Below, in pieces: positions 2,647-56,363 of a stretch of DNA of 64,000 nt. Position 1 is the first letter of the stretch, and every line of letters starts with the position of its first letter. The position numbers were made by a program, and so were the translations under genes. A model generated the notes under the pieces. That model did not search any database and was not told where the DNA came from. It worked only from the letters and a program-made list of their open reading frames with translations. Source of the DNA: Glutamicibacter soli (GTDB lineage Bacteria; Actinomycetota; Actinomycetes; Actinomycetales; Micrococcaceae); assembly GCF_003309065.1 (NCBI RefSeq), contig NZ_POAF01000007.1:1-64000 (forward strand), written 5' to 3'.

Positions 2647-3534
2647 ATGATCGGAAACTACCTGATCGGTCTGCGCGAGGGACTGGAAGCGGTCCTGATC
2701 GTGGTCCTGCTGATCGCGTACCTGACCAAAACGAACCGCCGGCACCTGCTGCCGCGCATCTACGCCGGCGTGGGCGTCGCGGTCGCGGTGTCGCTGGGCT
2801 TCGGCGCGCTGCTGACCTTCGGCCCGAGCGGGCTGACCTTCCAGGCGCAGGAGATCATCGGCGGCACGCTGTCCATCCTGGCCGCGGGCCTGGTGACCTG
2901 GATGATCTTCTGGATGGCCAAGACCTCCAAGACGATGAACAAGGACCTGCAGCAGCAGGTGGACAAGGCGGCCGACGGCCCGGCCTGGGGGCTGGTCATC
3001 GTCGGCGCGCTGTCGGTGGGCCGCGAGGGCCTGGAGACGGCGCTGTTCATCTGGGCCGCGGCGCGCACCAGCGACCAGACCTGGGAGCCGCTGCTCGGGG
3101 CGGGGCTGGGCATCGCCACCGCGATCCTGCTCGGTGTGCTGCTGCACCGCGGCATCGTGAAGATCCAGCTGTCCAAGTTCTTCGCCTACACCGGCGTGCT
3201 GCTGGTGGCGGTCGCCGCGGGCGTGCTCGCCTACGGCGTGCACGACCTGCAGGAAGCCGCCGTGCTGCCGGGCATCAACAACCTCGCCTTCGACCTCAGC
3301 ACCCAGCTGCCGCCCTCGGGCGTGGCCGCCACCTTGCTGCAGGGCATCTTCAACTTCACCCCGGCGATGACCGTGCTGCAGGTGGCCGCCTGGGCGCTCT
3401 ACATCGTGCCGGTGATGTTCTTCTACCTGCGCGCCCTGCGCTCCGGGACCAAGCCCGCGCCGAAGCCGACGGCGACGCAGTCGTCCGCGCAGTCACCAGC
3501 GCAGTCACCAGCGCAGTCTCCGGAAAACGCCTGA
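2647..3534 (+). CDS. efeU: EfeU, Ftr1-family high-affinity iron permease
   Basis: 295 residues, near the usual EfeU length. Two REGLE motifs, at residues 10-14 and 126-130, are the iron-relay REXXE signatures of the Ftr1/EfeU family, and about seven hydrophobic helices fit a membrane permease. In this family the protein moves iron across the cytoplasmic membrane, coupled to the EfeO and EfeB partners encoded next to it. The C-terminus ends in a short hydrophilic repeat in which AQSP recurs three times. The gene is first in efeUOB, and the upstream iron box suggests derepression under iron limitation. The start ATG has a GAAGG element about 10 nt upstream. Confidence 0.95.
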   Translation: MIGNYLIGLREGLEAVLIVVLLIAYLTKTNRRHLLPRIYAGVGVAVAVSLGFGALLTFGPSGLTFQAQEIIGGTLSILAAGLVTWMIFWMAKTSKTMNKDLQQQVDKAADGPAWGLVIVGALSVGREGLETALFIWAAARTSDQTWEPLLGAGLGIATAILLGVLLHRGIVKIQLSKFFAYTGVLLVAVAAGVLAYGVHDLQEAAVLPGINNLAFDLSTQLPPSGVAATLLQGIFNFTPAMTVLQVAAWALYIVPVMFFYLRALRSGTKPAPKPTATQSSAQSPAQSPAQSPENA

Positions 3535-4742: not shown

Positions 4743-6008
4743 ATGGGCGAAGAGAAGAAGGCCGGGATCTCCCGGCGGCTGCTGCTCACCGGCGCGGGCG
4801 CCGGCGGGGCGGGCCTTGCCGTGGGCGCGCTGGCCGCCGCGGCCTTCGGCGGGCAGCTGCCCGAGAAGCAGGCAACCGACACCATCGAGTTCTACGGCGA
4901 GCACCAGGCGGGCATCACCACCGAGGCCCAGGACCGCATGCACATCGTCGGCTTCGACGTGACCACGCAGGACCGCGGCAAGCTCGTCGCGCTGCTCAGG
5001 GACTGGACCGCGGCGATCGAGCAGATGGCCGCCGGGCAGCCGGTGGGCGGCGCCGACACCGGCTCCTACGACGCCCCGCCGGCGGACACCGGGGAGGCCG
5101 AGGGCCTGGGCGCCGCGCACCTGACGGTGACCGTGGGCTTCGGCCGCTCGCTGTTCCTCGACGAGCACGGCAAGCCGCGCTTCGGACTTCAGGGCAAGCT
5201 GCCCGAGGCGCTGATCGAGCTGCCGCATTTCTCCGGGGACATGGTGGAGGAACAGCGCAGCGGCGGGGACATCGTGGTGCAGGCCTGCGCCAACGACCCG
5301 CAGGTGGCGGTGCACGCGATCCGCAACCTCTCGCGGCTGGGCTTCGGCACGGTGCGGGTGCGCTTCAGCCAGATCGGCTTCGGCCGCACGGCCAAGACCA
5401 CCCAGGCGCAGCAGACCCCGCGCAACCTGTTCGGCTTCAAGGACGGCACCGCCAACATCCTGGCCGAGGACGCCGACGCGCTGGCCAAGCACGTCTGGGT
5501 GGGCAAGGATTCGACCGACCAGCCGTGGATGGCCGGGGGCACCTACATGGTGGCCCGGCGCATCCGCATGCAGATCGAGACCTGGGACCGCTCCGCGCTG
5601 CGCGAGCAGGAGAACGTGGTGGGCCGCATCAAGTCCACCGGCGCTCCGCTGTCCGGCGGCGAGGAGTTCAGCGAGCCGGACTTCGCGATGGCCGGGTCGG
5701 CCGGGCCGATCATCCCGGTGGACTCCCACGTGGCGGTGCTGCATCCCAGCGCGCACAACGGGGTGCAGATGCTGCGCCGCGGCTTCAACTACACCGACGG
5801 CTCGGACGGGCTGGGCCGGCTGGACGCCGGCCTGTTCTTCATCGCCTTCGTGATCGACGCGCGCACGCACTTCGTGCCGCTGCAGAAGGCCATGAGCGCC
5901 AACGACGCGATGAACGAGTACCTGCGCCACACCTCCTCCGGGCTCTACGCGATCCCGCCGGGCATCCAGCCCGGACAGTACCTGGGCCAGCAGCTCTTCG
6001 AGAGCTGA
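4743..6008 (+). CDS. efeB: EfeB, Tat-exported DyP-type haem peroxidase
   Basis: 421 residues. A twin-arginine signal (ISRRLLLTG, Arg11-Arg12) followed by an Ala/Gly-rich hydrophobic stretch predicts export in folded form. The DyP signature GFKDG (residues 231-235) carries the distal catalytic Asp, and a later SHVAVLHPSAHN region contains candidate proximal haem-ligand His residues. In EfeUOB systems this peroxidase oxidises Fe(II) or acts on haem to supply the permease. It is the last gene of the operon and is followed at once by a strong terminator. A weak GGGCGGGCACC element precedes the ATG. Confidence 0.95.
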   Translation: MGEEKKAGISRRLLLTGAGAGGAGLAVGALAAAAFGGQLPEKQATDTIEFYGEHQAGITTEAQDRMHIVGFDVTTQDRGKLVALLRDWTAAIEQMAAGQPVGGADTGSYDAPPADTGEAEGLGAAHLTVTVGFGRSLFLDEHGKPRFGLQGKLPEALIELPHFSGDMVEEQRSGGDIVVQACANDPQVAVHAIRNLSRLGFGTVRVRFSQIGFGRTAKTTQAQQTPRNLFGFKDGTANILAEDADALAKHVWVGKDSTDQPWMAGGTYMVARRIRMQIETWDRSALREQENVVGRIKSTGAPLSGGEEFSEPDFAMAGSAGPIIPVDSHVAVLHPSAHNGVQMLRRGFNYTDGSDGLGRLDAGLFFIAFVIDARTHFVPLQKAMSANDAMNEYLRHTSSGLYAIPPGIQPGQYLGQQLFES

Positions 6009-6024
6009 AGACCTGAGCAGGCTG

Positions 6025-6066
6025 CGGGCCCGCGCGATCTTTCCCATGGGATCGCGCGGGCCCGCT
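6025..6066 (+). terminator. Rho-independent-type terminator after efeB
   Basis: A perfect 16-bp stem, arm GCGGGCCCGCGCGATC at 6025-6040 and its complement at 6051-6066, with a 10-nt loop, begins 16 nt after the efeB stop. The T-tail is poor, as is common in actinobacteria. Confidence 0.85.
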
Positions 6067-6143
6067 GTTGCCTGCGCCGCGGCGTGCCTAGACTGGGTCG
6101 AACATCGGCAGGGCGGAACAGCTGTTTCGAAGCGGAGGGTCCC

Positions 6144-7328
6144 ATGAGCACGGTACTGCAGCAGCACAAGATCACCATCCTGGCCGGGGCGCGCACCGCG
6201 GTGGGCAGGTTCAACGGCATGTACCGGGAGCTTGACACCGCGCAGCTCGGCGCGGCGGCCGTCCGCGGTGCTCTGGAGCGCAGCGGGCTGGAGCCCGAGG
6301 CGGTGGACGAGGTGGTGATGGGCTGCATCGGCCAGGTGGGCCCGGAGTCCTACAACGCCCGGCGGGTGGCGCTGGGCGCCGGCCTGCCGCAGTCGACCAC
6401 CGCGTTCAACGTGAACCGGTTGTGCGGCAGCGGGCTGCAGGCGGTGTTCAGCGCCGCCCAGTCGCTGGTGGTGGGCGCCAACGAAGTGGCGGTGGCCGGC
6501 GGCAACGAGTCCATGACCGGCATGCCGTACCTGGACTACTCGGCCGGGCAGGCCCGCTCGCTGGCCCCGCGCACGCTGCGCCACGGCACCTTGGCCATGC
6601 TGACCGACCCGTTCAGCAACAAGCACATGGGAACCACCGCGGATGCGGTGGCCCGCAAGTACCAGGTGGGCCGGGCGGCGCAGGACGAGTTCGCGCTGCG
6701 CTCCCAGCAGCTGGCAGGCAGCCAGATCGCCCGCCAGGCCTTCGCGCAGGAGATCATCGAGCACAGCCTAGTAGGCGGCCAAGGCCGGGATGTCGACGAG
6801 CACCCGCGGCAGGGCGTGAGCCTGGATTCCCTGGCCGCGCTGACACCGGCCTTCTCCCCCGAGGGCACGGCCACCGCGGGCAATTCCTCGGGCGTGAACG
6901 ACGGGGCGGCGGCGCTGGTGCTGGCCAAGGGCGAGTACGTGCGGGCGCACGGGCTGCCGGCGCTGGCCACGGTGGAGCACGTGGTGGTGACAGCCATGGA
7001 TCCGGCCTACATGGGTTACGCCCCGACCTTCGCGCTGCGCAAGCTGTTCGCCGAGACCAAGCTGGGCCCGAAGGACATCGATGTGTTCGAACTGAACGAG
7101 GCGTTCGCCGCGCAGGCGCTGGCGGTGATCCGCGACGCGCAGCTGGAGCCCTACAAGGTCAACCCCTACGGCGGGGCCATCGCGCTGGGCCACCCGGTGG
7201 GCGCCACCGGCGCGATCCTCACCCTGCGCGCGGCGCTGGACCTGCGGCGCCGGGATCTGGAGTATGCGGTGGTGACGTTGTGCATCGGCGGTGGCCAGGG
7301 CATCGCAGCGCTGCTGAAGCGGCTGTAG
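6144..7328 (+). CDS. Acetyl-CoA C-acyltransferase (thiolase)
   Basis: 394 residues, the normal thiolase length. The acyl-accepting Cys94 lies in NRLCGSGLQA; GHPVGATGA near the C-terminus supplies the catalytic His; CIGGGQG carries the second active-site Cys. Either acetoacetyl-CoA synthesis or beta-ketothiolysis is possible. The start at 6144 is chosen over an in-frame upstream ATG (6084) because it has GCGGAGGG six nt upstream and gives the standard family N-terminus (ITILAGARTAVGRF). It stands alone after the efe terminator, with no adjacent fatty-acid oxidation partner, so the physiological substrate is undetermined. Confidence 0.93.
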   Translation: MSTVLQQHKITILAGARTAVGRFNGMYRELDTAQLGAAAVRGALERSGLEPEAVDEVVMGCIGQVGPESYNARRVALGAGLPQSTTAFNVNRLCGSGLQAVFSAAQSLVVGANEVAVAGGNESMTGMPYLDYSAGQARSLAPRTLRHGTLAMLTDPFSNKHMGTTADAVARKYQVGRAAQDEFALRSQQLAGSQIARQAFAQEIIEHSLVGGQGRDVDEHPRQGVSLDSLAALTPAFSPEGTATAGNSSGVNDGAAALVLAKGEYVRAHGLPALATVEHVVVTAMDPAYMGYAPTFALRKLFAETKLGPKDIDVFELNEAFAAQALAVIRDAQLEPYKVNPYGGAIALGHPVGATGAILTLRAALDLRRRDLEYAVVTLCIGGGQGIAALLKRL

Positions 7329-8218
7329 GCAACCAGAAACTAGCTCGTGAGGCCAATTGCTTGCACCACATAGTAGGAATTTAGTGCTTCAAGAAAGGTC
7401 CACAGGCGTAGCCATTCAAAGCGACGTTCTCCCAAACCTGCCATGCAGCAGTACAAATTTGAAAGAATATGCACCACGCAACTCACCACGCCTCTGGCGC
7501 AACTACCAACAACTCCGAGCAGGCTGCTAGTAGTTGTGCGCAAAGTATTGAGATCCACTGTCCACGAAGAGATGAGTTTCAGTGCCCACGATGTTGCGAA
7601 ATTACACACACTCAGCTGCAAGAACAGGAGTACCTTCAAGCGCTATTCTGCAGCTCATGAACCTGCTGACCGTGCCATCAGACGCTACTGGTCCGAAGAG
7701 ATCTGGTGAGGCTCGCAGCTGGCCGATGTCGGTGGCTTGCTCGCCACCGGCTGGCAGCGACAAGGCCAGGGCGCCGAGGTTTTTTTATGGCCGGTGGGTC
7801 GCGGTGGCTGGCACCAACCGACTGAACCGGTCTTCGCAGAGGCTACGCTAGTCCACCGCGTTCAAGAAACTGGTTAACACCGACAGGCTGGCGTGGGAGT
7901 CAAGGGCGTGGGCGGTGAGTTGGGTGGGGAGTACAGGGAAAACGTGGATGGTATTGTTCACTAAAAAGGTGATCCTTTGAACTGGGTGGATGACGATTAG
8001 ACACCACTATTTTCCCAGTTCTGATCACCTTTTCATATTTTAAGCCATTTAATGACTAACCCCACCCTGGAATACCGGAGCTAACTCATCAACATTCCAA
8101 AGATGGTTTAAACTCCATACATTATCTGAAATCACAGCAAAACTAAAGAACCTCCAAAATCTTCACCAGAGGGTCAGCCAGTGGACGTTTGACATCTGAT
8201 GGCTATGGCAGTTACTTT
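7329..8218. other. Accessory intergenic region, probable degenerate mobile DNA
   Basis: About 890 bp, less GC-rich than the flanks, without a convincing intact gene. Short reading frames exist, for example a Cys-containing 63-codon frame at 7469-7660 and a minus-strand frame ending at 7849 that reads like a protein tail, but none has a family match by eye. A long inverted repeat lies at 7963-8033 (annotated separately). The region marks the left side of the island carrying the hydrolase/membrane pair. Confidence 0.5.
7963..8033. repeat. Imperfect inverted repeat
   Basis: AAAAAGGTGATC ... AACTGGG (7963-7985) is mirrored by CCCAGTT ... GATCACCTTTT (8014-8033), leaving a 28-nt centre. The two arms resemble the terminal repeats of an insertion sequence from which the middle has been lost, or a large terminator. 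No target duplication was identified. Confidence 0.6.
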
Positions 8219-9067
8219 TCAGCCAATGTGCCGTTCGGTTGGCAGATGCACTACATCTTGGCGACTTTTAGGACGACGTATCAAATCGGTCTCGCTATTT
8301 GCCGAGGGTAGGCGTTCCCTATCAGCTTCGATAGGACGAATCCCCATAATCTGAAGTAGTGCAGCAGATGAAACTTCAGACTTCCAGTATTTGCCGTGAC
8401 CAAGTTTGGTGTCCGATGCTCGAGACCACCTGCCTTCAGGCCCACCAGTTCGTCCAACTGCCTTCGAGTTCCCCGGGCGGGCAAAACGCATGCCCGGGTT
8501 AAATAACAGCTGCAGAACACGGTCCTTTTTAGAATACAAAACAACTTGATCCGGCCCTCCTGATCGCGAGCTTGAATAGACCGATCGATCTTCACAATGA
8601 GCCTCTGGCACAGCCGCCGCTAACATTAGAGACTTGGATATTTTTCGGGCTGGAGGATCCATAGAAGCAAGCGCCTGTAGGACGAACCTGCATCCGAGAG
8701 AATGTCCCACAAAGACTACTTCTTTACACTGCGAAAGATGCTCTGCCAGAATGTCTCCAGCACGTTCCGCATCCGCGACACGGCTTGCAAAAGATGCGAT
8801 ATTTATAAACTTGTTATGGTCATAACCTGGCCAAATAATAGCAATAAATTTATAATCACGAAGTGTTGCTCTATGACTCGACTGCTTCGATATATTTCTC
8901 AAGAAATGATCATAACCCTCTAGGGCCTTTTCGCGATTAGTTGCAAATCCATGTACTAGCACTATAACACGGGAGCCTTCTCCCAGGGTCCAGATAATAT
9001 TCTCCTTTCTGACAACGCTTTCTCCCGAAATCGAAGAACACAAATCGACGGTGATAACCGGCTTCAT
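8219..9067 (-). CDS. Alpha/beta-hydrolase with complete catalytic triad
   Basis: 282 residues. The fold is shown by an oxyanion-type HGF segment (residues 39-41) and the nucleophile elbow GHSLG with Ser123. Asp182 (SKKDRV) and His224 (GHGKYW) sit at the spacing expected for the acid and base of the triad. It resembles DUF900/lipase-like serine hydrolases, but the substrate is unknown. There is no signal peptide, so it is probably cytoplasmic. The ATG at 9067 overlaps the upstream stop by 1 nt (TGATG), and a TTG one codon earlier is an alternative. The gene is co-transcribed with a four-helix membrane protein in an AT-richer island, suggesting a transferred two-gene module. Confidence 0.8.
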   Translation of the reverse strand: MKPVITVDLCSSISGESVVRKENIIWTLGEGSRVIVLVHGFATNREKALEGYDHFLRNISKQSSHRATLRDYKFIAIIWPGYDHNKFINIASFASRVADAERAGDILAEHLSQCKEVVFVGHSLGCRFVLQALASMDPPARKISKSLMLAAAVPEAHCEDRSVYSSSRSGGPDQVVLYSKKDRVLQLLFNPGMRFARPGNSKAVGRTGGPEGRWSRASDTKLGHGKYWKSEVSSAALLQIMGIRPIEADRERLPSANSETDLIRRPKSRQDVVHLPTERHIG

Positions 9068-48046: not shown

Positions 48047-48359
48047 TGACCCGTTCTAGATGGCTCTAGCAACAGGTGCAGAACACTTAATTTTCGGGAG
48101 TCGTACAAGCTGACTAGCGTCAAAGCGGTGACCACAGTGCTGAGCAGACCAATCACTTAGTCTCAGGCGCATGCTAAGAATTGCAACATAGTTTAGGTGC
48201 TGTTTAGCAGAAGTATATGGTAGTACCTGTACGCGTATCGGATGGGCGTAGCGGATAGCACTGACGTAACGATCGGATAGCACTTAGCCGGATTCGACGC
48301 CAAGATGATCCTGACACCCACGACACCGATGTCGTGGCCGTCGAAAGGAATCATCCATC
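48047..48359. other. Left flank of the outer IS21-type remnant
   Basis: About 310 bp without a gene. Near 48238-48285, repeats of CGGATRG (twice as CGGATAGCACT) resemble the multiple terminal repeats of IS21-family ends and may mark the left end of the outer element. CACGACA..TGTCGTG forms a small hairpin near 48318. Confidence 0.45.
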
Positions 48360-48566
48360 ATGGCTGATTACCGCAAAATCATGCTCCTGCTCTTGCAGGG
48401 GCGTTCCTACCGGCAGGTTCAAAAACTGCTGAATTGTTCACCGCGAACGATCTCTAAAGCCCGTCAAGTCATTGACGAGCAGGAATTTAGTACGCTGGAA
48501 CAGCTCAAGGACATAAGCGACGAAATACTGATTATTCGAAGCTTCTAGAACCACCAGTATCACGGT

Positions 48567-48829
48567 TCAGAGCCATCGAATATTGCGGTTCAGAGCCATC
48601 CAATATTCTTGTTCAGAGCCACCGTCCGAGTACGCCTCACGCATGTTGAATTCACCGGTCTCAACCCAGATCGTGTTGTGGACGATGTGGTCCATGATCG
48701 CATCTGCCATCGTGTCGGCTCCGAGCCGAGCGAGCCAGTCCGATTGTTTGTACTGCGTGCAGAGAATGGTCGAGGCAGCATCGCTCCTACGCTCCATGAG
48801 CTCGAAGATGAACCGCGTGGATCCCCTGG
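48567..48829 (-). pseudogene. Remnant of istB C-terminus in inner element
   Basis: The minus-strand frame reads FIFELMERRSDAASTILCTQ, then DWLARLGADTMADAIMDHIV, the C-terminal part of the IstB-like ATPase (sensor region and A-D-A-I-D-x-I-V block). The N-terminal Walker motifs are missing. The last 16 codons run through the terminal repeats. It is joined to the istA remnant just upstream by deletion. Confidence 0.82.
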
Positions 48830-49042
48830 TGGGCGTATTCGCTGCGGCCGGAGAAGCGGAGTTGGTAGACCTTCTCTTCAGCGAGGTCTTTGACTACGTC
48901 CCAGCTGCGTGAGGTGGTGTCGGCGGCGTTGAGGACTTCGGCGACGCTATTGCGGGAGACGCCTTGGGTGGACGCGATGACACGTCCTGAGAAACCTTCG
49001 GCGAAGCTGGAGAATTCGCTTCTCTTTGATCTTTCGTACCAT
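48830..49042 (-). pseudogene. Remnant of istA N-terminus in inner element
   Basis: From ATG 49042 (AAGGAG nine nt upstream) the sequence reads MVRKIKEKRILQLR, then shifts frame and continues EGFSGRVIASTQGVSRNSVA and DLAEEKVYQLRFSGRSE. This is the N-terminal HTH portion of the other IstA type found in IS21 elements. Only about 70 codons remain, with a small frameshift after LQLR, and the frame runs into the istB remnant. Confidence 0.8.
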
Positions 49043-50136
49043 TGAAAATGGCTCCTTCCACCACACCGGCTGTTGCCTGGTCGGAAGAGTTTATGCAGGG
49101 TGGCTCTAAAGGAGAATACCCGGTGGCTCTGAACGAGAATAACGGCTTTTCCGTCTGGTGGCGCTGAAGCGCAATATTGGTGGCTCTCAACGAGTCAAAT
49201 ATTCAATACTGGAGCAATGCTTCACCGATGGGCGCAAAGCTGTCTCCACCAGTTACGTTACGATTGATATCGACGCAGTTATCAAAGCCCGAATCGGGAG
49301 GAAGAAACCCCCGCTAAAAGTGCTCTGGGCCCGCTACCTGCGCACCGAAGCCACCGGCACGCAGCGGCACTATCAATACGAACGGTTCTGCCAACTCGTC
49401 GCGGAACAAGTCCAGCAAAGAAACCTGACCAGTCCGATCGCTCACGAGCCAGGACACACCATGCAGGTGGACTGGGCCGGCACCAAAATGCAGATCGTCG
49501 ACCCGATCATCGGCCGGGCCACGAAAGTCTCGATCTTCGTGGCCACCTTGCCCTACTCGGGTCTGCTCTTCGCCTACGGGTATCTGGATGAGAAGCTCGG
49601 CTCGTGGTGCGATGCGCACCGCAGGGCTTTTGAACATGCGCAAGGCGTTGCCCAAGTGATCATCCCAGACAACGCCTCGACAGCCTCCAACACGGTCAGC
49701 CGTTACGAGAACGTACGGGAGGTAAATCAATCCTACTCAGTTTTCCTTGAGCATTATCAGACGGCGGCGGTCCCGACGGAACCGTACCGGCCGCAGCACA
49801 AAGGCAACGTGGAATCCGGGGTGCAGTTGGTGACGAACTGGATCATCCACTACCTCGATGACCAACGGTTCGAGTCCATGGACGACCTGAACGACGCCGG
49901 CGCCGAACGCGTTGAATGGCTCAATGAGCGCACCCCGTTCCGTGGCGAGCCACGCTCCCGCAGGCAGTGGTTCGCATCAGGATGAGTTCTTCGCCATTGG
50001 GGATCAAGAGCGGTGCAAGTCACGGCAGGAGCGCGCAAATACTCCATTCCCGCGGCGGGACGCAGCCACTGGTTGGTTATACACATATCCGCAAAATAGA
50101 AGTACCTCCAAGCGCTTTACTGTCCCGGTGAACTGA

Positions 50137-50351: not shown

Positions 50352-51530
50352 CTAACGTTGCAAGTCGTTGAAAAGTGTTATCCACTTGGACGATATCGCC
50401 GATGGCAAATATTGCTGTGCGTGCATTCGGCCGCGATCCGAGTATTGAGCTAGAGTTTCTGGCTCTAAGGCCAGTTTCTCCATTGAAGCCGCAAATTCGG
50501 ATACATTATTCTGTCTAACAACAATCCCCGATTCGGAGTCGATAATTAAATCTCGAATCCCGGGAGCGCAATCGAATGAAATTGTTGGTACACCAGCAAG
50601 TGAGGCCTCAACAATTGCAATTGGTAAACCTTCATATTGGGAAGAAAGCAAATGAACTTTGGAAGAAGAAAGTACTTCACCAACCATGTCCGTTTTACCC
50701 ATCAGACGAATACGTGGTAATTTGAGATCATCAATCATCTCTTGCAGACTAGCCCCAAGCGGACCTTCCCCATAAAGCTCAACCTTCCAATCGGGCAAAT
50801 TCGAGTAAACCGATTCCCAAGCTTTTACAACGTAGTGCAATGATTTTTGTTTGTCATAGCGCCCTAGAGTAACGAATGTATTTTCACGCTCCTGGACCAC
50901 CGTCGAAGGATCGGCAACCGGGTTCGGAAGCCAGGACACGTTATTCAGACCAGCCCTCGTGAATAGTGCTGCATCGTCTGCAGTCAAACACACAAAACGA
51001 TCAACATCTTTGTAGTTCTTTAACACTCGACGCAAGTCGCCAGTTTGGACGCACATTTCATAAGAACCATGGTATTGTCCGATAACCCGAGGAAGGGAAC
51101 GGTCAAGCGGATCGTACCCGGCCTCAATCAGATGCTCCATACCAAATACTTGCGTACACAGGATCACGGTTTCGGGACCCCATTCGACCAACTTTTTGGA
51201 TAGCTTTCGACATCCATTCGACCGAAGTTCGTGACGGCGAGCATTTCGGCGCCGTCTAAAGGGGTTCAAGCGATCACGACGACGATTCAGTGTCCAATTC
51301 TCTGGCGCATGTTCATCCCATAGACAATCCACGAGCATTTCTGCCGGTCGATTAACTTCAACAAGCTCATCTTTTGGAGTCGGATTAACTCCAATGATTT
51401 CAACCAAAAAACCGCGTCTTAAAAACTCAGATGAAACTCGTTCGATGAAACGTGATACTCCGCCAAGCCTATCAACCTGATTAGACATGAGAACAACTCT
51501 TTTAAAAGGTAAGTTCACTATTATCCCCAT
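50352..51530 (-). CDS. Family-4 glycosyltransferase
   Basis: 392 residues, GT-B fold. The N-terminal acceptor domain begins VVLMSNQVDRLGGVSRFIERV; the C-terminal donor domain has FVTLGRYDKQKSL and the E-X7-E motif EGLPIAIVE, followed by SGIVV. It probably transfers a sugar from an NDP donor to the glycopolymer. Its ATG lies inside the end of the GT2-TagF gene (10-nt overlap), so it is the last gene of the polymer operon. Base composition is markedly AT-richer than in the flanking housekeeping genes. Confidence 0.9.
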   Translation of the reverse strand: MGIIVNLPFKRVVLMSNQVDRLGGVSRFIERVSSEFLRRGFLVEIIGVNPTPKDELVEVNRPAEMLVDCLWDEHAPENWTLNRRRDRLNPFRRRRNARRHELRSNGCRKLSKKLVEWGPETVILCTQVFGMEHLIEAGYDPLDRSLPRVIGQYHGSYEMCVQTGDLRRVLKNYKDVDRFVCLTADDAALFTRAGLNNVSWLPNPVADPSTVVQERENTFVTLGRYDKQKSLHYVVKAWESVYSNLPDWKVELYGEGPLGASLQEMIDDLKLPRIRLMGKTDMVGEVLSSSKVHLLSSQYEGLPIAIVEASLAGVPTISFDCAPGIRDLIIDSESGIVVRQNNVSEFAASMEKLALEPETLAQYSDRGRMHAQQYLPSAISSKWITLFNDLQR

Positions 51531-54319
51531 ACCCGCTCAACCGTACGATCCGCAGAATCCCCGTCTTCAAACCCTGCGAAGCGCTGCGAAAATTTATGCC
51601 GTTCATCTTTGTCGAGATCAACTGTCAATCTTTCCAAAACAGCCTTATGAAGCGACTGCTGATCCTTGACAATCAAACCAGGAGAGAATTCTTCTAGTGA
51701 AAAATAGGTTCCACGTTCGTCATTAACATAATTTTCGTAGTCGTAGGCGTATATAAGAATCGGGCGATCCAACGTGCAGTAATCAAACATCACACTTGAG
51801 TAATCGGTGATAAGTAGGTCCGAAACAGCAAAAAGCGACGAAATGTCATCAATTCCAGAAACATCGACAATTTTTCCCGCAAATTTAGGGTGGATTGAAA
51901 TCTTATTCAGATAGTGCGCCCTAATTAAAAGAATGCAATCATCACCCAAATCATCTATCCAGCCTTCCAGGTCCAACTCAAGCTTTATCGCGCGCTTAGA
52001 ATTCCGGCTATTTGCCCTAAATGTTGGAGCATAAAGAACTATTTTTCTATCACGCGGCAACCCCAGCATGATGCGAAAGTTGTCGGCCATTGAATTGTCC
52101 AATTTAGCTAGGATATCGTTTCGGGGCGACCCATACTTCAACAATTCATTCTTGTATCCGAATGCAGGAACGAAGGTGGTTTCAAAGTATGGATTCGGTA
52201 CTGTCAGGTAGTCCCAATAGCTCGCCTTTTTAACGAGCTCTCGCTTTTTAGCCATTGACGCATCAGCAAAATCAGGCTCGTCCAAACCCATGCGCTTCAG
52301 CGGAATGCCGTGCCAAAGTTGAAGGTATATCTGCGACTTCCGTTTTACGAAATACGAGGGTAAAGACTGATTATCAACTAAGTATCGGGAGCGGGCTAAC
52401 GCATATAAGTATTTCGCAGAATGACGAGTAACTGAATTGTAATCACCGTCAATGATTTTGCTTTGCGCAATTGACCAATTTTGCTTGTGGTTCGGGTAAT
52501 GGCTCGCGAGTGTAGAGGAAATTACCCCAGGACTATCCGAGGTCGAAGTACCCATATGGGATTCGAACAGAGTTGAATCCGAGTCAAGAGGCAGCATCCT
52601 CAGGAGCGAATAAATTGTTTTCCATCTTAAGGAGTTAGTTTTAACCGGCCGATCAAAAACGGAGTCTTTGATAACACGATATTTCGAAACTGGGGAAATA
52701 ATTCGGCGAACCAAAATCCGCTTCGTTCCAGATTTTAATCGCCTCACTCCCATTGTTCCATCGACAGTACGGTAAACTCTATAGCGATATGCTTCGATCC
52801 TATTGATCAAACCTCGATTAAATAGCCTTTTTTTAGGTATTTTTATTGAAGTAGGTATAACCAGATGACCTTCTCGCGAAGTTAACTGATTCGAAATTCT
52901 TGGACGTATTCCAATTTTATCGACATCTACCGCCGGCCAATTGGCGGGGACCGTGATTAATGCGTCCCAAAGCACCCATTGGCCGTCATAAACGACATTT
53001 TCGCATTTGAGAATTTTTGAAAATTTATTCTTCCCGCGAGAAAATATCCGCAAAGAGAGATTAGGGCTACTTAGGGCTGAAAGCTTTGCACCTGGATCAA
53101 AAGTTCGCCCTCTGACGGACAGTATTCCGCTGTTCACCTGAATTTCACGAACTTCGTGATACCACTCAACTTGGAACCACGGAGTGCTTTCAACATCGCT
53201 CTTGTCTACTGAAAGCAACGCACCACAGAGTGGTTCAGTTGACAGCTCATTAGTGGATTCAGAATGCCACCTGTAAGTCGACGACTCAACATCTGGCTCA
53301 AGGGGTGGTATCCAAGTAGCTCTTTTATTAATCATCGTGAAAGCATCGCGAACTATATCCGGACGAAGCATTAGTGCGGCGCCATACAGGAAACGCTCTG
53401 GGACGTCCAATTGCGCGTACGCCTCCGGGCTGACCTTCAAAAGGAAGGGCTTTAGGACTTTAAGAATCTCCAAGGCCAGCTCATCGTCGTGGGACACGAT
53501 ATCGTTCAAATACAATCGAGCATCATGGCGAAGAATTTTTAATTGAAGCCTACTAAATAAACCCGGGTTTTTCGAACAATCCACAGCCTTTTCAACGCGC
53601 GTCAACGCTTCAAGCCTGTAAATAAGATTCTTTATTGAGTCTCTTTGATTTGTTATAGATTTACGGACTTCATTCGGATATATATTCCAAACATAAGCCG
53701 ACTGCGGGATCACGGAAATACCAGAGGCGTTCATGAATGCCTTGGCGGAAAATACTAGATCTTCATAATGAATATCCGTAGGGAATTGGATCGAATTTTT
53801 TCTAAGGAATTCTACTTTATAGAGCTTTGCGACTACGATGGTATCGATGCTTAGCTCAGGATTATCTTCGATAGACTCATAGTATTCACGGGAAACGTAG
53901 AGTTTGTCGTGCCATCCTTTCCAGCGTTGCGCTTCGATTTCGAATCTCCGCGTTCGAGCCATCACGATGTCCGCATCGCTGGTTTCGGCCTCATGAAGAA
54001 GATTCTTGCACGCATGACGGTCTAAAGTATCGTCGCTGTCTAAGAAGAGTACATAATCTCCTCGTGCTTCTTCAAGACCCCTGCTTCGGGGGCCACCTAC
54101 ACCACCTGAATTGACGTCGAGCGATAAGAACCGGCCACGGGGGTCTTGTTCGACGATTGACCTAGCAGTCTCTGCGCTTCCATCTGTAGAGCAATCATCG
54201 ACAAGTAGGAGCTCGATGTTCTTGTGTGTCTGACCGTACACTGAACGTACAGCGTCAATTACATGCTCGCCGTCATTGAAGTGAGCGAGCACGATTGTAA
54301 TGTCAGGACTATGGGACAT
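51521..54319 (-). CDS. Bifunctional family-2 glycosyltransferase / TagF-like glycerophosphotransferase
   Basis: 932 residues. Residues about 1-230 form a GT2 domain (ITIVLAHFNDGEHVIDAV, LLLVDDCSTDGSAE, VLFLDSDDTLDRH). Residues about 330-560 are a middle region of beta and basic segments without a named domain. Residues about 600-930 are a CDP-glycerol glycerophosphotransferase: LWHGIPLKRMG, YAPTFRANSR, ITDYSSVMFDYCTLDRP. It may both add a sugar and polymerise or prime glycerol-phosphate at the inner membrane face. It is linked to tagD just upstream and GT4 downstream. AT-rich composition suggests transfer. Confidence 0.9.
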   Translation of the reverse strand: MSHSPDITIVLAHFNDGEHVIDAVRSVYGQTHKNIELLLVDDCSTDGSAETARSIVEQDPRGRFLSLDVNSGGVGGPRSRGLEEARGDYVLFLDSDDTLDRHACKNLLHEAETSDADIVMARTRRFEIEAQRWKGWHDKLYVSREYYESIEDNPELSIDTIVVAKLYKVEFLRKNSIQFPTDIHYEDLVFSAKAFMNASGISVIPQSAYVWNIYPNEVRKSITNQRDSIKNLIYRLEALTRVEKAVDCSKNPGLFSRLQLKILRHDARLYLNDIVSHDDELALEILKVLKPFLLKVSPEAYAQLDVPERFLYGAALMLRPDIVRDAFTMINKRATWIPPLEPDVESSTYRWHSESTNELSTEPLCGALLSVDKSDVESTPWFQVEWYHEVREIQVNSGILSVRGRTFDPGAKLSALSSPNLSLRIFSRGKNKFSKILKCENVVYDGQWVLWDALITVPANWPAVDVDKIGIRPRISNQLTSREGHLVIPTSIKIPKKRLFNRGLINRIEAYRYRVYRTVDGTMGVRRLKSGTKRILVRRIISPVSKYRVIKDSVFDRPVKTNSLRWKTIYSLLRMLPLDSDSTLFESHMGTSTSDSPGVISSTLASHYPNHKQNWSIAQSKIIDGDYNSVTRHSAKYLYALARSRYLVDNQSLPSYFVKRKSQIYLQLWHGIPLKRMGLDEPDFADASMAKKRELVKKASYWDYLTVPNPYFETTFVPAFGYKNELLKYGSPRNDILAKLDNSMADNFRIMLGLPRDRKIVLYAPTFRANSRNSKRAIKLELDLEGWIDDLGDDCILLIRAHYLNKISIHPKFAGKIVDVSGIDDISSLFAVSDLLITDYSSVMFDYCTLDRPILIYAYDYENYVNDERGTYFSLEEFSPGLIVKDQQSLHKAVLERLTVDLDKDERHKFSQRFAGFEDGDSADRTVERVWG

Positions 54320-54350
54320 ACTTATTTCCGGATCTTTCTCATACTAATCG

Positions 54351-54812
54351 TTAGCTCAGTTCTTTCACGATCTGACTTAGCGTATCCAAGGTGTTTTTCA
54401 ACGACTCGACGTGCCGTTCATCAAACTCACTGAGCACCCGTTTCATTTCAGTTGTGGAAATTCCAGCAGTTCGCGGCAGGTAGACGACTTCGACCTCATC
54501 GCCCAGGTCATCGAACTTACCTTTCCAGTCTTCGCCGATGCCGAAGACCTTGACATCGTACTTCGCGATATCCAGACGCTTCTGTTCCCAATTTTCTTCC
54601 GGGATGGCCAAGTCAACGTACTTGATGGATTCTACGATCTCCCGACGCTGCTCGAACGGCACAACAGGCTTTTTACCCTTGATGGCGTTGAACTCATCGG
54701 TCGAAACGCCGACGATCAATCGGTCGCCCTTTTCCTTCAGACGCTTGAGGATATTCAGGTGTCCGATGTGGAACAAGTCGAACGTGCCATAGGTCAATAC
54801 AGTTTTCGGCAT
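54351..54812 (-). CDS. tagD: Glycerol-3-phosphate cytidylyltransferase
   Basis: 153 residues. The HXGH nucleotide-binding motif is HIGHLN (residues 16-21) after LTYGTFDLF, and the second signature is RTAGISTTEMK. TagD makes CDP-glycerol from CTP and glycerol-3-phosphate, the donor for the TagF-like enzymes encoded next to it. It ends with a 20-residue helical extension beyond the catalytic core. The spacing of 31 nt to the next gene supports an operon. Confidence 0.95.
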   Translation of the reverse strand: MPKTVLTYGTFDLFHIGHLNILKRLKEKGDRLIVGVSTDEFNAIKGKKPVVPFEQRREIVESIKYVDLAIPEENWEQKRLDIAKYDVKVFGIGEDWKGKFDDLGDEVEVVYLPRTAGISTTEMKRVLSEFDERHVESLKNTLDTLSQIVKELS

Positions 54813-54971
54813 AAGGTCCTCCTACGTATTACAGCCCAATCTTCACTCGATGACTGGCTCAATTTTACAAGTTACATTCTCGTGCCGTCGCCCACACGCC
54901 GCGATTCCCTCCGAAGTGACGGATTCGAGGTTCAATTACGCATGGCCAAGCCCAACGTGCTGCATCAGCTG

Positions 54972-56363
54972 TCAGTTTTCGAATGACGACTTGTACGGGA
55001 ACAACGAATTGAGAACGCGTTTGGCCATCCTGCCCCGCAATTCCTTTTCGGAAACCGTTGCTACTTCATTCAGGCAGAACATCTGCTTGCCTGAACCTAC
55101 CAGCAGCCTGTAGAGGTTCAATGCCAAATGGTCGCCACCGAGATCAACATATGCATAGTCAATTTCGGCGGGCACGCCAAGTCCTTCGGCGGCCGCGATG
55201 TAGTGCGCTAGAGATGACGGAACAGAGATGTCATCTACGTGACGGAACTTATGCCTGGCAGTGGCATTGACCGCGCTCGGGAAGTACTCTCGGATCTTGT
55301 CATGGATCAGCAAACGTTGCGGATGAGCGACGTGCCGGAATTTCAACGCAGTCGTGCGGCCATACTTGTCAAAAATAAGATCTGCGTTCCGTTGAGCCGC
55401 TTGGTTGACTGCCAATCGGGGATTCGATGCTTCGGAATAGTGTTTGTTGGCCAGGGCGTATTTCACATCACCGCTAGCAGTGAAAAAGGTATTTTGCGAC
55501 AGCGGACGGCCGAAGAAAATATCGTCATTTACGTAGAGGAAATGCTCGGAGAGGCCCTCAATCTTGGAGATCTGGGTCTCGATTGCATGGGAGTTAAAGG
55601 TCGGCAAGCAGTCTTCGCTATTGTCGAAGATGTCCCGATGATCAACCAATTTGATCTTGCTATTATCTTGGCGCAGCCATTCTGGAACTTGGCCAGCGGT
55701 GACCAGAAAGATGTTCCGAACCCACGGCAGGTTCATTTCCAGCGATCGAAGGGAGTACTTCAGCTCGTCTCGGGACGTGTATCTCGCGAGATCGCGGCTA
55801 CTCTCGTGGGCCCCGTTTGCGGGAACCAGTTCCTTGTAACGGCGGTAGGAGGTTTGCCAATCGGCGTCTGCAGCGTCTACCCATGTGTAGACTACATCGA
55901 TGGGTTCCGTAAAATCTTGAACATCCGGAACTTGCGGTTTGCCATCGGAATAGACAACCCAAATTGCGCCTAGCCCAGCGTGTCGGTCGTCGCGCAGGGT
56001 GCCGCCGAATTCCTTCGGGGCGATCACGCTCCAAGCCTCGATCGCTCCATAGCCCACTGCGTCATGCTTTACTTTGACAAGACTAAATCCGTGTTTTTCG
56101 AATGCATCCGACAAAATTGCCCAGGAGCTGCCATCGACCGTAGTCGCCTGACGTACGGCATCATCTGCGTAGGCCAAGCCCAAGAATTCAGCAAGATGCC
56201 GTGTCGAAACGGTATTTTCAGTATGGATCTGCCGAATATTCAGAGAACTGCATGCCGTGGTTTTCGTACGCCAATCAAGGATCCGCTGCCAGAAGGAGCT
56301 AGGCATCGTGCGAGCCAGCTGACCTTTCCATCCACGAATTCCCAAAATAAACACACCATCCAC
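54972..56363 (-). CDS. Stealth-family polysaccharide phosphotransferase
   Basis: 463 residues from a GTG. The Stealth blocks are EPIDVVYTWVD (CR1, about 153-163), DELKYSLRSLEMNLPWV with FLVTAGQVPEWL, and FNSHAIETQI ... HFLYVNDDIFFG (CR2), then CR3/CR4-like segments such as HVAHPQRLL and KFRHVDD. The family transfers hexose-1-phosphate from UDP-sugars to make phosphodiester-linked polymers. Residues 1-150 are an extra N-terminal region without a known domain. It fits a phosphodiester-rich wall polymer together with tagD. Confidence 0.9.
   Translation of the reverse strand: MDGVFILGIRGWKGQLARTMPSSFWQRILDWRTKTTACSSLNIRQIHTENTVSTRHLAEFLGLAYADDAVRQATTVDGSSWAILSDAFEKHGFSLVKVKHDAVGYGAIEAWSVIAPKEFGGTLRDDRHAGLGAIWVVYSDGKPQVPDVQDFTEPIDVVYTWVDAADADWQTSYRRYKELVPANGAHESSRDLARYTSRDELKYSLRSLEMNLPWVRNIFLVTAGQVPEWLRQDNSKIKLVDHRDIFDNSEDCLPTFNSHAIETQISKIEGLSEHFLYVNDDIFFGRPLSQNTFFTASGDVKYALANKHYSEASNPRLAVNQAAQRNADLIFDKYGRTTALKFRHVAHPQRLLIHDKIREYFPSAVNATARHKFRHVDDISVPSSLAHYIAAAEGLGVPAEIDYAYVDLGGDHLALNLYRLLVGSGKQMFCLNEVATVSEKELRGRMAKRVLNSLFPYKSSFEN

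Follow-up and report, generated by a model that had tools for sequence, protein, structure and literature searches.

In the window, by which we mean the whole 64,000-nucleotide stretch of Glutamicibacter soli DNA that was analysed, the sequence from position 48201 onward consists of the remains of one IS21-type element divided by a second IS21-type element. The nested insertion is real, as is the reduction of its inner member to a deletion derivative, and the event is of an ordinary kind: one insertion sequence entered another, and decay followed. The sequence-only reading that had proposed nested IS21-type elements here was upheld in this central point by tblastn searches, by a removal test, and by colinearity with an intact relative. 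In our view the best overall explanation, and one that is very probably correct, is that an IS21-type element transposed into the istA gene of another subgroup, that the target ATAC was duplicated, and that both elements are now decayed. The nest can thus be read as a clear stack of events comprising an outer insertion, an inner insertion, and an inner deletion that happened before or after landing. The anatomy, its boundaries, the duplication, and the deletion relative to a full-length relative were all observed directly, and the search of the assembly found no intact partner.

The proposed course of events would be as follows. An IS21-type element would have transposed into codon 57 of an istA gene belonging to another subgroup, copying a 4-bp target (ATAC). 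Some 1.9 kb of istA and istB is missing from the inner element, and what remains of its istA is frameshifted; the second half of the outer istA, the outer istB, and the outer right end have been lost or have become unrecognisable. Both elements would need outside help to move. They occupy an intergenic gap between convergent genes of a cell-wall-polymer locus, a site at which insertions are probably of little harm. The flanking genes encode a member of the CDP-glycerol glycerophosphotransferase family (PF04464; 46817 to 48046, plus strand) and a member of the glycosyl transferases group 1 (PF00534; 50352 to 51530, minus strand), and they converge on the nest, contrary to an earlier description of them as divergently oriented. 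The polymer locus continues at 51521 to 56363, where it encodes a protein of the glycosyltransferase/CDP-glycerol glycerophosphotransferase type and one of the Stealth family.

The outer element is assigned by its sequence to an IS21 subgroup other than that of the insert. Its left end lies at 48201 (TGTTTAG), a terminus that also bounds the copies found in Paeniglutamicibacter sulfureus, and three terminal repeats can be read by eye at 48201 to 48285 (plus strand). A first blastn estimate of 48243 was superseded by this placement. Four of the five P. sulfureus copies have duplications of 5 to 7 bp, read from their flanks; in the fifth (L045), identity is lost ahead of the right end. Similar outer-type ends occur elsewhere in the same genome and in the genus.

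The outer istA begins with its start codon at 48360 on the plus strand, and its first part (48360 to 48528) extends as far as codon 57, where the insert interrupts it. Its second part, at 49210 to 49985 on the same strand, carries the integrase core. In tblastn alignments, residues 5 to 66 of P. sulfureus IstA match 48345 to 48530 with 56% identity and residues 66 to 320 match 49209 to 49973 with 69% identity, and no istA homology was detected beyond 49973, which is residue 320 of 559 in the relative. The second identity value and a PF00665 score of 33.9 bits (cut-off, 32.6) point to a predicted IstA with an integrase (DDE) core. An outer-type IstB query searched against the window by tblastn matched only the insert's own istB remnant. 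With up to three mismatches allowed, the window yielded no second copy of the outer end, a limit that a diverged copy could escape, and a looser 13-base end pattern gave 4 matches in the window against 4.29 expected by chance. The outer element therefore lacks a recognisable istB and a recognisable pair of ends, the left end alone having been found.

Several further observations concern outer-type elements. Relative to the copy in L049, the window has 13 extra bases (48240 to 48252) between the first and second outer terminal repeats, possibly a footprint or a small duplication. L049 (positions 5676 to 7009; contig 23:95675-97009 of the same genome) contains a second outer-type end pair, about 1.3 kb apart, which encloses an IS110-like frame; another glycosyltransferase-like gene is nearby (both judged by eye). 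In the genus member G001, an element with TGTGAAAT... ends (L033, 6142 to 7868) lies inside the first terminal repeat of an outer-type element and is flanked by a 14-bp direct repeat. A TGTGAAAT-ended element also occupies the first terminal repeat of the outer-type elements L050, L051, and L052, and in G009 (two copies) and G015 its left junction falls at almost the same position.

The insert itself spans 48529 to 49205 (677 bp, TG...CA), with its istA-to-istB direction on the minus strand. These ends were placed by homology to full-length relatives in the genus, which terminate in TGAATATTTGA...TCAAATATTCA or close variants, and the tetranucleotide ATAC flanks the insert on both sides (48525 to 48528 and 49206 to 49209). 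The match of the ends to full-length relatives and the flanking ATAC copies both support nesting, although a lone 4-bp duplication is weak evidence, being expected in 1 of 256 cases at fixed ends. Among 19 printed inner-type elements, an exact duplication was visible by eye in six, the window included (ATAC, tgaa, ccgcgaa, gctac, ctttggc, and caagc); three more have a duplication with one mismatch, one of them visible only through comparison with a sister species, and none could be seen by eye in the other 10.

The insert had previously been placed at 48546 to 49218 between two copies of GCTTC. That placement has next to no probability left. GCTTC does occur at both places, and removal with one copy does give an in-frame join, but the homology puts the element ends at 48529 and 49205, and shared pentamers are commonplace: 93% of 5,000 random pairs of 60-bp segments from the window have some 5-mer in common. 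The two removals were compared by aligning the rejoined istA with relatives. The comparison took nine loci (L040, L041, L046, L069, and L071 to L075) together with L033, of which L069 and L075 were dropped because they had no plus-strand frame with the search motif. Against all eight remaining relatives, removal at ATAC scored higher than removal at GCTTC (margins of 1 to 25), in six of them with an alignment free of gaps, and the GCTTC join was one residue longer. The GCTTC copies end 17 bases (left) and 14 bases (right) further right than the ATAC boundaries, so the difference between the two removals is a single whole codon and the GCTTC join is also in frame. An uninterrupted outer-type copy in G001 (L033) runs through the insertion site without an indel. 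The GCTTC copies look like chance and were dropped as the target duplication. The claim that the insert divides an IS21-type istA whose frame is restored by excision was confirmed by tblastn and by these joins, while the exact rejoined residues given for the GCTTC join did not survive the comparison.

Alignment of the insert's ends shows four repeat units at each, on the istB side at 48529 to 48623 (plus strand), where the outermost unit is degenerate, and on the istA side at 49099 to 49205 (minus strand). The earlier description of inverted terminal repeats was right in that they are multiple and wrong in counting three and four. The direct repeats are spaced by 23 and 23 bp on the left and by 23, 35, and 22 bp on the right. 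The insert has the TG...CA ends, the multiple direct repeats, and the short target duplication of an IS21 family member. A 23-bp repeat spacing is described for an IS21-family transposase in PMC10122671, where integration is said to require two complete repeats, and PMC11208146 contains the proposal that multiple repeats keep the transposase inactive until the helper binds.

What the insert has kept and lost was determined by comparison with a G001 relative of 2,628 bp (L034:6051-8678). The IstA of this relative scores above the NCBIfam IS21 cut-off; its IstB scores 180.4, below the NCBIfam cut-off of 200 but above the Pfam IstB_IS21 cut-off. From L034 the insert retains 6051 to 6423 (end repeats and the start of istA, with 2 nt missing), 8319 to 8501 (the end of istB), and about 8580 to 8678 (the repeats of the other end). 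It lacks 6424 to 8318 (about 1.9 kb), save for 22 poorly matching bases, and also 70 to 78 bases beyond istB. In the window, the istB remnant occupies 48618 to 48812 on the minus strand (residues 183 to 247 of 248, 78% identity by tblastn; PF01695, 28.1 bits, cut-off 24.1), the deletion junction consists of the 22 bases at 48813 to 48834 (minus strand), which have no good counterpart in the DNA of the relative, and the istA remnant occupies 48814 to 49042 (minus strand; tblastn and DNA alignment), covering residues 1 to 75 with a frameshift near 49003. The DNA alignment of istA with the relative stops at 48835, and the protein alignment extends into the 22 bases of the junction.

The pieces lie along L034:6051-8678 in the order istA then istB, as in the intact relative. 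The description of the insert as a compact internal deletion derivative, colinear with such a relative, stands. The description of an istA start fused to an istB end holds for the DNA, both pieces being on the minus strand, but not for a protein: the three coding pieces of the insert are in three different frames, and the apparent fusion is thus a DNA junction that yields no fused protein. A complete transposase with its helper ATPase is not encoded, as about 1.9 kb is gone from the two genes and istA is frameshifted, so the insert makes no transposase. Because parts of istA and istB are missing, movement would be expected to depend on a full-length partner. That expectation, already voiced in the sequence-only reading, follows from the missing genes. 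The search for such a helper found no intact partner in the same genome.

The genome is a draft assembly of 25 contigs, and none of its candidates (six of six scored) is an intact IstA of the insert's type. Three IstA-type matches were found: the outer istA, the remnant in the insert, and a fragment with two stops on contig 20. The eight IstB-family matches comprise the remnant in the window, the contig 20 fragment, dnaA (by position), and five others that fall below the cut-off in long ATPase-like frames. With an assembly in 25 contigs, a repeated full-length partner could be absent from it. Four of the 18 genus genomes (G001, G002, G006, and G017) contain full or nearly full relatives, whose paired ends are 2.3 to 2.6 kb apart; in the G002 copy, istA is spread over several frames. 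A plasmid collection contained IS21 relatives, mostly from Actinomycetota. Plasmid matches covered at best 36% of a 2-kb window query and 90% of the 2.6-kb relative, and none covered 80% of the window query.

Nesting of the same kind was found in a genome of another genus (G215, genus g23), where a full-length inner-type element of 2,575 bp interrupts the 3′ end of istA in an outer-type copy and is flanked by the duplication GCAAC. Genus g23 also includes G177, five copies of which lie at coordinates that agree with those of P. sulfureus records. A second outer-type copy in G215 is uninterrupted at the site of the nest, and the genome has another inner-type copy with 99.96% identity across 2,580 bases. 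Taken with the nest in the window, this indicates that inner-type elements have nested in outer-type elements at least twice, at different sites in istA. The G215 nest also bears on whether the arrangement in the window might be a chimera of assembly and not an insertion at all. The draft state of the assembly, in 25 contigs, would allow such an artefact, but the 271-kb contig continues past both sides of the nest, and the ends and the duplication are as transposition predicts. We consider a chimera very improbable.

With transposition preferred, the order of the inner events can be weighed. We infer, with a modest preference, that the inner element was full-length on arrival and suffered its deletion at this site; arrival in an already short form is somewhat less probable. 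A specific version of early shortening is that the insert arrived in compact form, with no transposase of its own, after a full-length relative had mobilised it in trans, in the manner of a MITE or a mobile insertion cassette. This would fit the retention of both ends with four repeats each and the clean duplication. It would also fit 14 further compact end pairs at genus loci (390 to 1,249 bp, 12 of them 494 to 833 bp). Several of these pairs have one weak end; set against only 4 lone, mostly weak matches, they count against random decay, which would rarely spare both ends. For three compact elements, the insertion is absent from a sister species, and two in G009 (G009a and G009b) have interior sequence in common, which fits movement of a short form. 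On the other side, compact relatives that can be aligned to a full-length element break at different points, and no intact helper was found in the genome. A search for further copies, which had been suggested as a check, found the same deletion junction at no second site in this genome or in 295 family genomes (top two candidates per genome scored), whereas a MITE or mobile insertion cassette is recognised by one short form at more than one site. Mobilisation in trans is accordingly possible but somewhat doubtful, and we retain deletion after a full-length arrival as the preferred order.

Tracing the insert's ends led to a landing zone common to the genus, since the compact relatives in other genus genomes sit at one orthologous place, between parB and trxB. 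We compared the G. soli genome itself (contig 20:80261-86902; L030 8265-14900; L090) with 17 relatives (L091 to L107). The two genes are on one contig, 3.9 to 8.6 kb apart, in all 18 genomes, and the intervals total about 111 kb of about 66 Mb, or about 0.17% of the sequence. An end-profile search at an E value of 0.01 or less, with 150 of 554 to 933 first-look candidates per genome scored, gave 53 matches in 13 genomes, of which 39 lie between parB and trxB. The profile used in this census (R1) was built partly from ends within the interval, and matches found with window DNA only were therefore also grouped by hand: 11 of 18 distinct inner-type elements, the window's own excluded, lie in the interval. 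A profile restricted to ends from elsewhere in the genomes detected ends in 9 of the 18 intervals and missed the interval element of the G. soli genome, which was visible merely as an istA fragment. With istA and istB fragments included, IS21 remnants are present in 11 of 18 intervals, and by the same outside-ends profile and fragments none were found in the other seven (G003, G005, G006, G007, G013, G014, and G015).

The interval is otherwise poor in genes. Frames of at least 110 residues that are matched in at least six genomes occur only on the parB and trxA/trxB sides, and among eight long interior frames that were scanned the one Pfam match was to a transposase; the G001 interval contains an intact istA and istB. 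Exact matches to the parS consensus are present in 17 of the 18 intervals, the sites in G003 all having one or two mismatches. In the G. soli genome this interval, part of the dnaA-parA-parB neighbourhood, measures 6.6 kb and contains a 565-bp relative of the insert. This element is missing from G009, where the alignment reads as an empty site with a single target copy, and G012 likewise lacks the 833-bp and 543-bp elements of G002, again with a single target copy each (one mismatch was allowed in two of the three targets). These three empty sites in sister species indicate separate insertions into one interval. The intervals of G004 and G016 can be aligned almost wholly, and their remnants were thus probably inherited, so that the 39 matches do not represent 39 events. 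Two G009 elements face about 200 other bases in G000 without a clean empty site, and one G012 element has no clean target in G002. In the G009 interval (L099), compact elements at 2804 to 3385 and 6526 to 7064 lie in opposite orientation and are 67% identical over 341 bases; the match passes the terminal repeats into interior sequence unmatched by the full-length relative, which could mean that a short form moved or underwent duplication.

Whether such an accumulation reflects targeting or mere tolerance, the sequence would be compatible with either. The parB interval and the gap in the window both lie between convergent genes, which favours tolerance. A bolder and rather unlikely idea is that this IS21 subgroup and its compact derivatives preferentially land, or persist, in the gene-poor DNA that separates parB from trxA/trxB near dnaA, with its parS-like sites, comparable to transposons at centromeres, possibly through the target-choosing ATPase IstB meeting ParB-coated DNA. 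On this view the insert in the window would have landed away from that interval, inside another transposon. If targeting beyond tolerance does occur, the genus would be a natural system in which to ask whether the helper ATPase of a transposon can read the segregation complex. The accumulation beside parB lies outside the original finding and is a better lead than the nest.

Among the matches listed from a search of open-access titles and abstract openings, there was no account of an arrangement like this nest and no report of insertion sequences gathering beside parB. The closest known systems share parts of the arrangement. ISLxc4d1, three IS30-family copies with one common deletion according to PMC2516522, and the MITEs and mobile insertion cassettes mentioned in PMC3281130 resemble the insert in having an internal deletion with retained ends, but differ from it in that the deletion form in the window was not found a second time. 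The likeness to the IS21 family (IS5376 and IS21, in PMC10122671) extends to the istA/istB order, to the rve and Mu-type C-terminal domains of the relatives, to the TG...CA ends with direct repeats about 23 bp apart, and to the short target duplications. Compared with that family, the insert has mere pieces of both genes and the outer element has no detectable istB or right end, while each insert end has four repeat units where two are drawn for the prototypes in a figure legend of the same paper. A further counterpart is ISLxc1 of Leifsonia xyli, described in PMC2516522 as an IS21 family element entered by IS1237. Like the outer element, it is IS21-type, has a truncated istA, and was entered by a target-duplicating insertion sequence; there, IS1237 sits 58 bp upstream of istA, whereas here a shortened IS21-type element lies within istA itself.
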